This document shows, piece by piece, positions 24,093 to 27,605 of a stretch of DNA of 64,000 nucleotides. The notes beneath the pieces are model-generated. The model saw only the letters and a program-made list of their open reading frames with translations. It had not been told where the DNA came from and searched no databases. Position 1 is the stretch's first letter, and the number at the start of each line of letters is the position of its first letter. Where the stretch lies: positions 102,531 through 166,530 of the forward strand of contig JABAQJ010000003.1 of assembly GCA_019186945.1 (NCBI GenBank). The letters run 5' to 3'. The translations under genes were made by a program, and so were the position numbers. This stretch comes from Gemmatimonadaceae bacterium (lineage in GTDB: Bacteria; Gemmatimonadota; Gemmatimonadetes; Gemmatimonadales; Gemmatimonadaceae).

Positions 24093-24868
24093 CGCACCCA
24101 GACTCGTTCGAGGTTCCGCGCGCTCCGGGCAATCTTACCCGCCAGGCAGCGACGCCTGACCTGAGGCCCGAACTGGTGGACCAGCCGGACGTCGGCGTTG
24201 TGATCGTTGCAGCTGGAAGCGGTTCGCGTACCGGGAGCCGTGAACTTAAGCAGTTTCGCTGGGTGGCCGGGAAGCCAATGCTCCTGCACAGTATCCAGGC
24301 GTTCCATCGCCGACGCGACGTGGCGCTCGTCGTCGCGGTGTTGCCCAGGTCGTTCGCTGGCGACCCTCCGCCATGGATCTTCCAGTGCGATATCGATCGC
24401 CTGCTGGTATCCGTCGGCGGAAGGCAACGCAGCGACTCGGTGTGGAGCGGTATCGAGGATCTCCCGGAAGAAGTGCGCGTGGTGGTGGTGCACGATGCGG
24501 CTCGACCGCTCGTGACCGACGCCACGATCGACGCCGTCATCGCCCGGGCGCGCGCGGGCCGGGGCGCGGTGGCCGCGCTTCCCGTCGTGGACACGCTCAA
24601 GGAGGTGGATGCCGATGGCCGGATCGTCCGGACCATCGACCGGGCGACCCTCTGGCGCGCGCAAACGCCGCAGGCGTTTCCACGGGAGATGATCGAGCGT
24701 GCGTATTTGCAAGCGATTCGGGATGGCATCGTCGCCACCGACGACGCCGCGCTATGCGAGCGGCTGCAGCTGGAAGTGACCGTCGTGCCAGGCAGCGAAC
24801 GCGCGCTCAAGGTCACGGAAGAGTCGGATTTCGCACGAGCCGATCGCCTTGCCAGACTCGAGGGCTAA
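24089..24868 (+). CDS. ispD: 2-C-methyl-D-erythritol 4-phosphate cytidylyltransferase
   Basis: 259 residues with an N-terminal extension of about 33 residues before the core. The nucleotide-binding loop is VIVAAGSGSRTGSRELKQF; VVHDAARPLVTDATID and WRAQTPQAFPREMI are IspD signatures. It makes CDP-methylerythritol in the MEP isoprenoid pathway. The start is GTG 24089, overlapping radA. IspF, often adjacent, is not here. Confidence 0.93.
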   Translation: MTHPDSFEVPRAPGNLTRQAATPDLRPELVDQPDVGVVIVAAGSGSRTGSRELKQFRWVAGKPMLLHSIQAFHRRRDVALVVAVLPRSFAGDPPPWIFQCDIDRLLVSVGGRQRSDSVWSGIEDLPEEVRVVVVHDAARPLVTDATIDAVIARARAGRGAVAALPVVDTLKEVDADGRIVRTIDRATLWRAQTPQAFPREMIERAYLQAIRDGIVATDDAALCERLQLEVTVVPGSERALKVTEESDFARADRLARLEG

Positions 24869-24869
24869 C

Positions 24870-25532
24870 GTGTCACTCGCCGTCCCATTCTGGTCCGCAG
24901 AGGAAATCGAGTCGTCGCTGGGCGGCACCATCGCTCATCTGCAGGCCGGTCGAGTCCTGGCGTACCCCACAGAAACCGTTTACGGATTCGGGGGAGCGGT
25001 GGATGCCGATGCGGTCGAGGCGCTGGTCGCTCTCAAGGCGCGCCCGCCAGCCAAGCCGTTCCTGTTGCTGATAGCCGGAAGCGAGATGCTGCATCGACTC
25101 GGGTTGAATCTGACGAGCCCGGCGTCGCGCCTTGCAGCGCGACATTGGCCCGGACCGCTCACCCTCGTGCTTACGGGCGGCGAGCATCGGATCCCGGCAC
25201 GGCTGCGCGGGCCGGAGGGTGGTGTTGCAGTACGATGGACGTCGCACCCGGGACTGCAGCGGCTCATCACGGCTTATGGCGATCCGCTGACGTCGACCAG
25301 CGCGAACCGTCCGGGCGTAGCTCCGGCCATGACCGCGACCGAAATCGTTCATGCCTGGAGCGAGTCGATCGGCCGTGGCGTGCTACGCGTGCTCGATGGT
25401 GGGAGGCTCGAGTCATCGCCTCCATCCACGGTCGTGGATTGTACCGGCCGACAATTGCGCGTCATACGGCCGGGGGCGATTCCTGCAAACGTGCTCCGTG
25501 AGAGCGTGGATGACCTGATTGGAGACCGGTAG
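24870..25532 (+). CDS. tsaC: L-threonylcarbamoyladenylate synthase (TsaC/Sua5/YrdC)
   Basis: 220 residues from GTG 24870, 1 nt after the ispD stop. Core YrdC motifs: AYPTETVYGFGG, KARPPAKPFLLLI, WPGPLTLVL, and PLTSTSANRPGVAP. It makes threonylcarbamoyl-AMP for the t6A modification of ANN-decoding tRNAs. There is no C-terminal Sua5 domain. The next gene, a phosphatase, starts 1 nt after the stop; the same pair is seen in Bacillus (ywlC-ywlE). Confidence 0.92.
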   Translation: MSLAVPFWSAEEIESSLGGTIAHLQAGRVLAYPTETVYGFGGAVDADAVEALVALKARPPAKPFLLLIAGSEMLHRLGLNLTSPASRLAARHWPGPLTLVLTGGEHRIPARLRGPEGGVAVRWTSHPGLQRLITAYGDPLTSTSANRPGVAPAMTATEIVHAWSESIGRGVLRVLDGGRLESSPPSTVVDCTGRQLRVIRPGAIPANVLRESVDDLIGDR

Positions 25533-25533
25533 C

Positions 25534-26004
25534 ATGCGTCTGCTATTTGTCTGTACGGGGAACACCTGTCGCTCGCCCATGGCCGAAGCGATCGCCCGAC
25601 GCGAAGCCATCGAGCGGGGACTGATCGACGTCGAGGCTTCGAGCGCTGGCACCAGCGCATGGGATGGCGCCCCCGCTTCGGATGGCGCCTTGCTCGTCGC
25701 CATGGAACGAGGGAGCGATCTTTCGTCGCATCGCGCGCAGCAGCTCTCGAGGGAACTCGTTTCGATGCAGGATCTGATTCTCTCCATGGGATCGCATCAT
25801 CTTGAGCGTGTCGAAGCTCTCGGCGGAGTGGGTACGGCACACCTGCTCTCTGCCTACGCGTCGAATGGCGAACGCCGCGACGACGTATCGGATCCGTTTG
25901 GCGGCGATCTGGAGGCGTACCGCGCGACGTGGCGCGACCTGGAACGTGACATCCGGCGCGTGTTCGATCGTCTGGCTGCCGGGCGAGCCCCGCGCGACCA
26001 GTGA
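25534..26004 (+). CDS. Low-molecular-weight phosphatase, probably protein-arginine phosphatase (YwlE-like)
   Basis: 156 residues. The active-site loop is VCTGNTCRSPMAE (Cys 7 to Arg 13) and the general-acid Asp is in SDPFGG. The residue after Asn in the loop is Thr. Established work on Bacillus YwlE links this Thr to phosphoarginine specificity, whereas tyrosine phosphatases of this fold usually have Ile or Leu there. The gene follows tsaC directly, as ywlE follows ywlC. The start ATG 25534 has GGAG about 10 nt upstream. The protein-arginine kinase McsB is not in the window, so the specificity is a prediction. Confidence 0.8.
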   Translation: MRLLFVCTGNTCRSPMAEAIARREAIERGLIDVEASSAGTSAWDGAPASDGALLVAMERGSDLSSHRAQQLSRELVSMQDLILSMGSHHLERVEALGGVGTAHLLSAYASNGERRDDVSDPFGGDLEAYRATWRDLERDIRRVFDRLAAGRAPRDQ

Positions 26005-26810
26005 ATCGACCCCCCGGCCGGCTCGTCCTTCTGGGACGGCCGGTCGCGCATTCGCTGTCGCCGCGCTTCCAGAATGCCGCGTTGCTCAAGGCGGGCATCC
26101 CGCTCACCTATGAAGCGATCGACGTCGCCCCACTGAAGCTCGCGGATACCATGAGCGCGTTGCGTCTCGTGCGCGGCGCCGGAAACGTCACGATTCCACA
26201 CAAGACTGCCGTGGCGGACCTGTGCGACTGCCTGACGCCAGTCGCGACGCGTACCGGAGCTGTGAATACGTTCTGGCACGATGCCGCCGGAACGCTCAAC
26301 GGAGACAACACCGACGTTGAAGGCTTTCTGCGTCTGGTTGAATCGTTGCGGCTGCCTTCCTTGCCGCAACGCGTCGCGATTCTTGGCGCCGGTGGCGCTG
26401 CCGCTGCTGTGTGCGATGCAGTCGCGTCGTGGCCGGGTACGACCGCGCTACTCTGGAGTCGGCATCCAGAGACCGCGGCCCGGCTGGCGAAGCGCTACGC
26501 CGCCTGCGTCAGCCCGGTGACGGATATCGAGGACTGCGTGCGCTCCGCTGGTCTCGTGGTAAACGCCACGCCCGTGGGCCTGCTCGACGAGGACATTCCC
26601 CTGCCGGTGCACCTCATTCCGCGTGACGCCGCGGTGACGGACCTGGTATACCGTACAACCGAAACCCGTTGGGTGCGCGAGGCTCGCGCACACGGACATC
26701 CGGCGGCCGACGGTCTCGTTATGCTGATCGAACAGGGGGCGGCCGCGTTCCGTCGCTGGTTCGGCGTCGAGCCCGATCGGGATGCCATGCGAAGAGCCGC
26801 AGGACGATGA
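26001..26810 (+). CDS. aroE: Shikimate dehydrogenase
   Basis: 269 residues from GTG 26001, overlapping the phosphatase stop. Substrate-site motifs are HSLSPRFQN and NVTIPHKTAV (catalytic Lys), plus NGDNTDVEGF with the catalytic Asp. The NADP domain starts ILGAGGAAAAV. It reduces 3-dehydroshikimate in the chorismate pathway. No other aro gene is nearby. Confidence 0.94.
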   Translation: MNRPPGRLVLLGRPVAHSLSPRFQNAALLKAGIPLTYEAIDVAPLKLADTMSALRLVRGAGNVTIPHKTAVADLCDCLTPVATRTGAVNTFWHDAAGTLNGDNTDVEGFLRLVESLRLPSLPQRVAILGAGGAAAAVCDAVASWPGTTALLWSRHPETAARLAKRYAACVSPVTDIEDCVRSAGLVVNATPVGLLDEDIPLPVHLIPRDAAVTDLVYRTTETRWVREARAHGHPAADGLVMLIEQGAAAFRRWFGVEPDRDAMRRAAGR

Positions 26811-26819
26811 GGGGGCACG

Positions 26820-27605
26820 GTGTTTGCCTGCCGTGCCATTGCCGGAGGATCGTTGGACGTCATCTCGCGTCTGTCCCGGACCGTTCGCAACATCGCCCAC
26901 GTGTTGCTGCCACCCGTGTGCGCCGTCTGCGAGCGCGAGCTGCCGCTTGCCGATGACGCTCTCGTCTGCGGCGTGTGCTGGTCTCGGCTGCAACGCCTTC
27001 CGCACCCGCAATGCCAGCGTTGCGGACATCCTGGCTCGGTCACCAACTGCCACTGGTGTGCCGTGCTGCCGGCATATGTGCGCTCTGCACGATCAGTGTG
27101 CTGGGTTCCGGATGGGTCGGCTGGCCCGATCGTCCATGCGTTCAAGTACGGAGGGTGGTATCGGATCGCGGGCGAACTCGCCAGACGGATGAGCCGACTC
27201 GCATGGCCCGATGAGGAACGGAGCGAATGGAGCGGCATCGTCCCGGTTCCTCTGTCTGCCTCGCGACTGCGTGAGCGCGGATACAATCAGTGTCGTCTGC
27301 TTGCCGACGCACTCGCGCAACAGTGGAAAATCCCGGCCTACGATCAGTTCCTTATGCGACCGGTGGCGACACGAGTTCAGGCTCGGTTGACACCAGAGGA
27401 GCGTTTGCGCAACGTTGCGAACGCGTTTCGGGTCAGCCACATGCCATCCTGCCTTCGCGGTTCGCATCTGGTTCTGGTGGACGACGTCATTACGACCAGC
27501 GCGACCCTCAACGCATGCGCCGCTGCCTTGTTCGATAGCGGTGTGCGCGCGGTCAGCTATGTTACCTTCGGACGCGCTCGTTCGCTCGGCGACGTCCCCA
27601 CATAA
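26820..27605 (+). CDS. comF: ComF family phosphoribosyltransferase-like protein
   Basis: 261 residues from GTG 26820 (preceded by GAGGGGG); TTG 26853 with GGAGG upstream is an alternative. The N-terminal zinc-ribbon has CAVCEREL, CGVC, CQRCGH and CHWC. The C-terminal PRTase part has the PRPP loop LVLVDDVITTSATL and VPVPLSASRLRERGYNQ. ComF proteins support DNA uptake and recombination of imported DNA in competent bacteria. It is the last gene of the overlapping cluster; gap follows after 15 nt. Confidence 0.9.
   Translation: MFACRAIAGGSLDVISRLSRTVRNIAHVLLPPVCAVCERELPLADDALVCGVCWSRLQRLPHPQCQRCGHPGSVTNCHWCAVLPAYVRSARSVCWVPDGSAGPIVHAFKYGGWYRIAGELARRMSRLAWPDEERSEWSGIVPVPLSASRLRERGYNQCRLLADALAQQWKIPAYDQFLMRPVATRVQARLTPEERLRNVANAFRVSHMPSCLRGSHLVLVDDVITTSATLNACAAALFDSGVRAVSYVTFGRARSLGDVPT

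Follow-up and report, generated by a model that had tools for sequence, protein, structure and literature searches.

Protein arginine phosphorylation has been described chiefly as a mark of heat shock and quality control in Gram-positive bacteria, and a phosphatase gene in a Gram-negative Gemmatimonadota genome raises the question of whether its product acts on phosphorylated arginines there. The gene lies in the window, by which we mean the whole 64,000-nucleotide stretch analysed (C8:102531-166530), and the genome (G000) comprises 3.95 Mb in 20 contigs and is listed as 100% complete. An earlier note, drawn from the sequence of the window, had read the product as a likely protein-arginine phosphatase on account of the Thr in its CTGNTCRS loop and of its tsaC neighbour. 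Frame, coordinates and motif proved correct on translation: the gene occupies 25534..26004 of the forward strand (ATG at 25534, TGA at 26002-26004), and its 156-aa product, a predicted protein-arginine phosphatase, aligns with almost the entire Pfam LMWPc profile (106.8 bits, E 1.5e-30). It is the single LMWPc match in a Pfam search of the genome, and its ten closest relatives, at 55-67% identity, all come from Gemmatimonadota records. The P-loop, C7-T8-G9-N10-T11-C12-R13-S14, is encoded at 25552..25575 on the same strand, with Thr11 (codon ACC, 25564-25566) at PX5, the position whose weight for specificity we take from PMC8001253. The acid loop, D120-P-F-G-G, follows at 25891..25905 and begins with the general acid D120 (GAT, 25891-25893); D120, P121 and G123 are invariant in our alignment.

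The gene sits in an ordinary housekeeping region. Upstream on the forward strand, tsaC (L-threonylcarbamoyladenylate synthase; 24849..25532, start codon uncertain) ends with TAG at 25530-25532, one base before the phosphatase gene, and its product is a Sua5/YrdC (TsaC) protein by PF01300 (140.6 bits) and TIGR00057 (127.3 bits, cut-off 123.2), as the earlier note had named it. Downstream, aroE (shikimate dehydrogenase; 26001..26810, PF08501 and PF18317) starts with a GTG at 26001 that overlaps the phosphatase stop, and a comF-like gene at 26820..27605 (DZR_2 38.9 bits; Pribosyltran 22.2 bits, under the cut-off of 26.3) completes a forward-strand row tsaC-ywlE-aroE-comF (24849-27605), seen again at many Gemmatimonadota loci. 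The wider row reads, by Pfam, dnaB, a KaiC/AAA ATPase whose sequence reads as radA, ispD, tsaC, the phosphatase gene, aroE, the comF-like gene, gapA, pgk and tpiA. In the five loci of family f10, tsaC is the sole row member detected next to the phosphatase gene. The arrangement had been likened to that of Bacillus, a likeness that holds only approximately: at a Bacillus sp. locus (L079) some 0.9 kb separates the frame of tsaC from that of ywlE.

To which class of low-molecular-weight phosphatase the product belongs was left open by a single-sequence search of the PDB, which ranked Geobacillus YwlE best (80 bits), followed by a T. tengcongensis chain with the loop CTGNTCRS (78.5), a Thermus LMW-PTP (73.7) and B. 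subtilis YwlE (72.4). That the Thermus enzyme, with its loop CLGNICRS, nearly equals YwlE here favours a conventional LMW protein-tyrosine phosphatase of the Wzb/PtpA type, which would have a bacterial tyrosine kinase or envelope polysaccharide synthesis as its target and in which the Thr would be incidental. The AlphaFold model of the window protein (pLDDT 96.5) likewise matched YwlE best (Z 26.4, 35-38% identity in the structural alignment) and the Thermus LMW-PTP next (Z 24.8), values that confirm the predicted fold but are too close to separate the specificities. None of the NCBIfam LMWP models matched the window protein at its curated cut-off; the top rank went to Wzb, which also fits the tyrosine-phosphatase reading, though at 62.5 bits it fell far under the cut-off of 243.

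Sequence profiles, by contrast, resolve the class. With a profile of 33 rows (A1), which held Bacillota rows chosen with the loop pattern and is therefore biased towards YwlE, the YwlE-type chains and the T. tengcongensis chain scored 144-152 bits, and the best tyrosine-type chain reached 103. A profile built from 19 Gemmatimonadota rows alone (A2) kept this class order with a smaller gap: the solved Bacillus and Geobacillus YwlEs scored 120-128 bits, the T. tengcongensis chain 115 and the best tyrosine-type chain 89, and the solved YwlEs were favoured over the tyrosine type by 31 to 38 bits. In a phosphatase tree of 132 sequences with PX5 masked, the tyrosine-type and YwlE-type sequences were split with 100% SH-aLRT support, and the window protein fell on the YwlE side, among Gemmatimonadota YwlE-type sequences. 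The loci chosen for this tree included 12 from Bacillota, 13 from other phyla and 10 of tyrosine type; L317 and L062 were excluded as short, L189, L172, L277 and L303 for low scores, and L064 as identical to L291 of G207. The two sides also differ in clade markers, T8, T11, H89, G123 and Y129 in the YwlE class (where T8 and H89 vary slightly) against L8, I11, N89, Y/F123 and F129 in 10/10 tyrosine-type rows, all of them Gemmatimonadota sequences with the loop CLGNICRS and an acid loop of DPY followed by Y or F. The window protein has neither a CLGNICRS-type Ile loop nor DPYY, and combines the LMW-PTP fold, the C(X)4CR(S/T) loop and the DP acid loop of the YwlE type. We consider the tyrosine-phosphatase reading unlikely.

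Weak matches to ArsC models (33.9 bits, cut-off 174.3) raise a further reading, an arsenate-reductase-like protein or another LMWPc side branch without protein phosphatase function. Against it stand the near full-length match to YwlE, the intact DP acid loop and the different loop of ArsC-like proteins of Gemmatimonadota (e.g. CTGNSARSQ), and we regard it as highly improbable.

A protein-arginine phosphatase would call for a kinase, and the absence of any arginine kinase was one half of what the earlier note took to count against its reading. The genome does encode one. Its single PF00217 match (194.4 bits, C8:225425-226027) is found on the same contig, ~97 kb away from the phosphatase gene, and the protein scored 266-275 bits against McsB structures in the PDB, with 274.5 bits for 6tv6, the octameric B. 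subtilis McsB. A metabolic phosphagen kinase acting on free arginine was considered and ruled out by these scores, since the best one-domain arginine kinase reached 88.8 bits and the two-domain taurocyamine and arginine kinases 169 and 164 bits, and by the adjacent mcsA. The latter lies directly upstream of mcsB and encodes a protein with four CxxC motifs and 83.4 bits to the solved activator 8wtb_B; clpC lies directly downstream and encodes two Clp_N repeats, with GTEH twice in the N-domain. The kinase, activator, unfoldase and phosphatase genes are thus all on one contig, the first three in a region outside the window (L002:80-14306, reverse strand; C8 217000-236000). Both GTEH motifs were found in 25/26 Gemmatimonadota ClpCs, and according to PMC12583610 they sit at E32 and E106, through which ClpC binds phosphoarginine. 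Mycobacterial ClpC1 is reported to conserve these phosphoarginine-site residues as well, with no McsB known there (PMC9604228), so the GTEH sites are necessary but not telling.

Among the further partners that the earlier note had listed, ctsR was the one that did not turn up: CtsR (PF05848) gave no match in the window genome and, among the control genomes, matches in Lactococcus lactis alone. In the 19 kb around the operon there was no match at ≤3 mismatches to the consensus of CIRCE, the HrcA operator. The McsA and McsB models of NCBIfam gave no match at their curated cut-offs (McsB at best 359.5 against 385), and automatic annotation may therefore overlook or under-name both genes; all five NCBIfam models listed for McsB were protein-arginine-kinase models. 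The 14 control genomes yielded 0 PF00217 matches, and one of them, labelled Bacillus subtilis, was also negative for Clp_N and CtsR. B. subtilis carries a ctsR-mcsA-mcsB-clpC operon, so these controls do not prove sensitivity, and the operon stretch may be missing or masked in that copy. The sensitivity of the search is shown instead by PF00217 matches in all 59 genomes of a further search, many of them Bacillota.

The YwlE side of the tree, the 120-128 against 89 bits of the Gemmatimonadota profile, the lack of a second LMWPc match in the genome and an McsB on the same contig all support the arginine-phosphatase reading of the earlier note, and on sequence grounds we think it likely that the window protein is a YwlE-type protein-arginine phosphatase opposing McsB. 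Its phosphoarginine specificity, its pairing with McsB, degradation by ClpCP and its physiological role are inferred by analogy with Bacillota. On that model, McsA would activate McsB, which would phosphorylate arginines of unfolded or chosen proteins; the window phosphatase would strip phosphate from these arginines before ClpC binds the tagged protein; and ClpC, recognising the phosphoarginine mark, would with ClpP degrade only the proteins that stay marked.

We then asked how widely the two enzymes are shared across the phylum, using 249 Gemmatimonadota genomes, ≥85% complete, drawn evenly from a larger group. LMWPc was present in 249/249 and McsB in 243/249. With McsB so common, its co-occurrence with the phosphatase is little informative within the phylum. 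Four of the six McsB-negative genomes keep a Thr loop, and these four are assemblies of 130 to 910 contigs. Outside the phylum, McsB was found in 49/49 genomes reached through named Thr-loop loci; these comprise Bacillota, Zixibacteria, Krumholzibacteriota, Verrucomicrobiota, Lentisphaerota, one Pirellula and one Eisenbacteria, with one locus (L064) belonging to the Gemmatimonadota genome G207, and they form a non-random set of Thr-loop genomes only, picked by similarity to the window protein and by loop-containing patterns.

The kinase itself looks intact throughout. NEEDH, CPTN, RAS and GE, motifs whose residues we take to have the roles they have in phosphagen kinases, are invariant in 49/49 distinct Gemmatimonadota McsBs, those of the window genome and of the lineages with an Ile loop included; 12 identical sequences had been removed from this alignment, ten of which were duplicates of one and the same place. 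The phosphoarginine receptor site is more variable. In B. subtilis McsB it consists of R337, D338 and R341 (PMC8370763), and the corresponding residues in the window genome are A, N and R. Beyond Gemmatimonadota, 36/39 aligned McsBs retain R337 and 36/39 retain D338; within the phylum R337 is kept in 10/49, D338 in 30/49 and both in 9/49 (three of f10, six of f5), a truncated sequence (L203) counting as a gap, and R341 and A342 are kept in 49/49. As judged from these residues, the receptor site is lost in most, not all, Gemmatimonadota lineages; it is regulatory and not needed for kinase identity. The RDxxRA receptor motif belongs to the C-terminal part of McsB, for which the place recorded is L001:1189-2268 on the reverse strand.

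We next examined PX5 itself, because the earlier note had rested its case for specificity on the Thr at this position. A degenerate DNA pattern for the Thr loop, CxGNTCR[S..]P, matched once each in 191/249 genomes, against 0 matches for the reversed control pattern, and is thus not a matter of chance. Reading the 58/249 genomes that lack the strict pattern as lacking YwlE was considered and rejected, as other Thr loops and Ile or Val forms account for most of them: 15 have a Thr loop outside the strict pattern, 9 of these seen as protein (A or V after CTGNTCRS) and the remaining 6 by a looser DNA match alone. The full tally is 206 genomes with Thr, 39 with Ile but no Thr, 1 with Val and 3 (G210, G218 and G236) that showed no such loop. 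The looser Ile pattern gave 3 control matches over the 249 genomes, so that lone unverified matches could be chance. Two genomes counted as Thr carry an additional match: G195 has a second protein with CTGNICR (54.1 bits to PF01451) beside its Thr ortholog, and G216 an extra CRGNICR match.

McsB was present in 202/206 genomes of the Thr class, 38/39 of the Ile class, 1/1 of the Val class and 2/3 of those with no such loop, and Thr versus Ile is unrelated to the presence of McsB in the phylum (Fisher p 0.58). The Ile forms look like true orthologs of the window phosphatase. In 16 of the 39 genomes, those fetched with flanking sequence, the Ile-loop gene lies inside the tsaC-ywlE-aroE-comF row in 16/16 cases (four genes in 14, three in 2); T8, G123 and Y129 are kept in 24/24 aligned Ile/Val rows and H89 in 23/24. 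Since tsaC adjoins the Ile-loop ortholog in 15/16 of these genomes, adjacency to tsaC says nothing about specificity. Ile orthologs occur in families f2, f3 and f7 (loci L150-L166, L168, L169, L173, L174, L176 and L178), and the phosphatase tree, which has low support on many inner branches, requires at least six changes of state at PX5. The Ile forms arose in at least two distant places, one genus of f7, in which G088 keeps Thr, and families f2 and f3. One genome, G197 (a single contig of 5.5 Mb, listed as 93% complete), has an Ile-type phosphatase and no McsB match; the absence of its kinase is possibly a real loss, a natural deletion.

When Thr is exchanged for Ile in PtpB of S. aureus or YwlE of B. 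subtilis, activity moves from phosphoarginine towards phosphotyrosine: the PtpB T11I exchange raises PNPP hydrolysis about six-fold, and the corresponding YwlE exchange raises activity on phosphotyrosine and lowers it on phosphoarginine (PMC8001253). This biochemistry predicts that an Ile form favours phosphotyrosine, yet 38/39 Ile genomes keep McsB, so that one residue cannot settle specificity in Gemmatimonadota. The argument from Thr is the weak point of the earlier reading: the residue is present, but with Ile and no Thr in 39/249 genomes, 38/39 of them with McsB, it is not decisive by itself. As far as the sequences go, either the Ile lineages would have lost the phosphoarginine phosphatase and kept its kinase, or PX5 would not be decisive in this phylum. 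The second possibility could be carried further, to a dual or relaxed enzyme in which Gemmatimonadota YwlE is not tuned by PX5 and the Thr and Ile forms are functionally equivalent, both acting on phosphoarginine or both being mixed. The shared row, the shared markers and the retention of McsB would fit such an enzyme, and the marked effects of the exchange in PtpB and YwlE speak against it; we judge it distinctly unlikely, and keep to a protein-arginine phosphatase for the Thr-bearing window protein.

In the window genome, the genes prfB-lysS-lolC/E-lolD-mcsA-mcsB-clpC-bamA-skp-lpxD-lpxC/fabZ form a row on one strand, in which the Lol names are those of the best NCBIfam models, whose cut-offs were narrowly missed (LolD 276.6 against 307.75, LolCE 353.7 against 362.45). 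The order recurs: in 26/26 Gemmatimonadota loci with flanks, mcsA is preceded on its own strand by lysS, a lolC/E-like permease gene and a lolD-like ATPase gene, a second permease gene lying between lolD and mcsA in L268, and bamA follows clpC in 25/26, the contig of the remaining locus (L247) ending inside clpC. In two Krumholzibacteriota loci the order is kept as far as clpC, and one of the two has bamA as well. Three Zixibacteria loci, one Eisenbacteria locus and 1/2 Lentisphaerota loci also have a lolD-like gene ahead of mcsA; none was found in seven others (two Bacillota, one Pirellula, one Lentisphaerota, two Verrucomicrobiota and one further locus). Its neighbours, lipoprotein sorting genes and bamA, suggest that the row is tied to assembly of the outer membrane; a functional connection is not shown by gene order alone.

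A tree of McsB, built by a quick search with SH-aLRT support only, places the Gemmatimonadota sequences in one clade (99%), grouped with Zixibacteria, Krumholzibacteriota and Eisenbacteria (96%); the 27 Bacillota rows fall on the other side, together with one further long-branched row. This topology argues for old vertical inheritance of McsB in Gemmatimonadota and against recent transfer from Bacillota. We tentatively suggest, as a possibility that we do not yet hold to be probable, that McsA-McsB-ClpC has long belonged to outer-membrane biogenesis in Gemmatimonadota and in the Gram-negative phyla related to them, and has been passed down vertically. Phosphoarginine would single out for ClpCP either proteins of envelope or lipid A synthesis, with LpxC as a candidate, or outer-membrane precursors that are mistargeted; the threshold would be set by YwlE, whose gene lies elsewhere, and Thr-to-Ile changes in several lineages would have turned YwlE towards phosphotyrosine and left McsB unopposed.

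Comparison with known systems places the phosphatase as a member of a known enzyme class and the wider system as a variant. Like YwlE of Bacillus subtilis and Geobacillus and PtpB of Staphylococcus aureus, the window protein has Thr at PX5, a DPFGG-type acid loop and the same fold, and it aligns to YwlE over nearly its full length; it differs in its Gram-negative host, in directly adjoining tsaC and aroE, and in the Ile at PX5 of some orthologs in its phylum. With the Bacillota system, the genome shares the mcsA-mcsB-clpC order, the catalytic motifs of McsB, the four CxxC motifs of McsA and the two GTEH motifs in the N-domain of ClpC. The Bacillota regulon has ctsR as its first operon gene, whereas the window genome, with no CtsR match, has the lolD-like gene upstream of mcsA, preceded by the lolC/E-like gene, has bamA downstream, and carries Ala and Asn at receptor positions 337 and 338.

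The Gram-negative setting, which the earlier note had thought worth following, is not unprecedented. Chlamydia trachomatis, also Gram-negative, has McsAB and ClpC of the same protein families, and PMC10128030 reports that its ClpCP2P1 degrades arginine-phosphorylated casein, that its mcsAB lies apart from clpC, and that horizontal acquisition has been suggested. The window genome differs in having mcsA, mcsB and clpC together, and McsB is common to 243/249 genomes of its phylum. Our literature search, with subscription journals mostly outside its scope, returned nothing on arginine phosphorylation in Gemmatimonadota: a single paper names both McsB and Gemmatimonadetes, but in passages that have nothing to do with each other, and the single one with McsB and LolD is a table of CoAlated proteins.

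Nearly all the genomes examined in this Gram-negative phylum thus carry a protein-arginine kinase. In the window genome the kinase gene stands in a row with outer-membrane assembly genes and there is no CtsR match, so that its regulation there must differ. Gemmatimonadota also offer a natural experiment on PX5, in which the same gene at the same locus carries either Thr or Ile and the kinase is kept with both.
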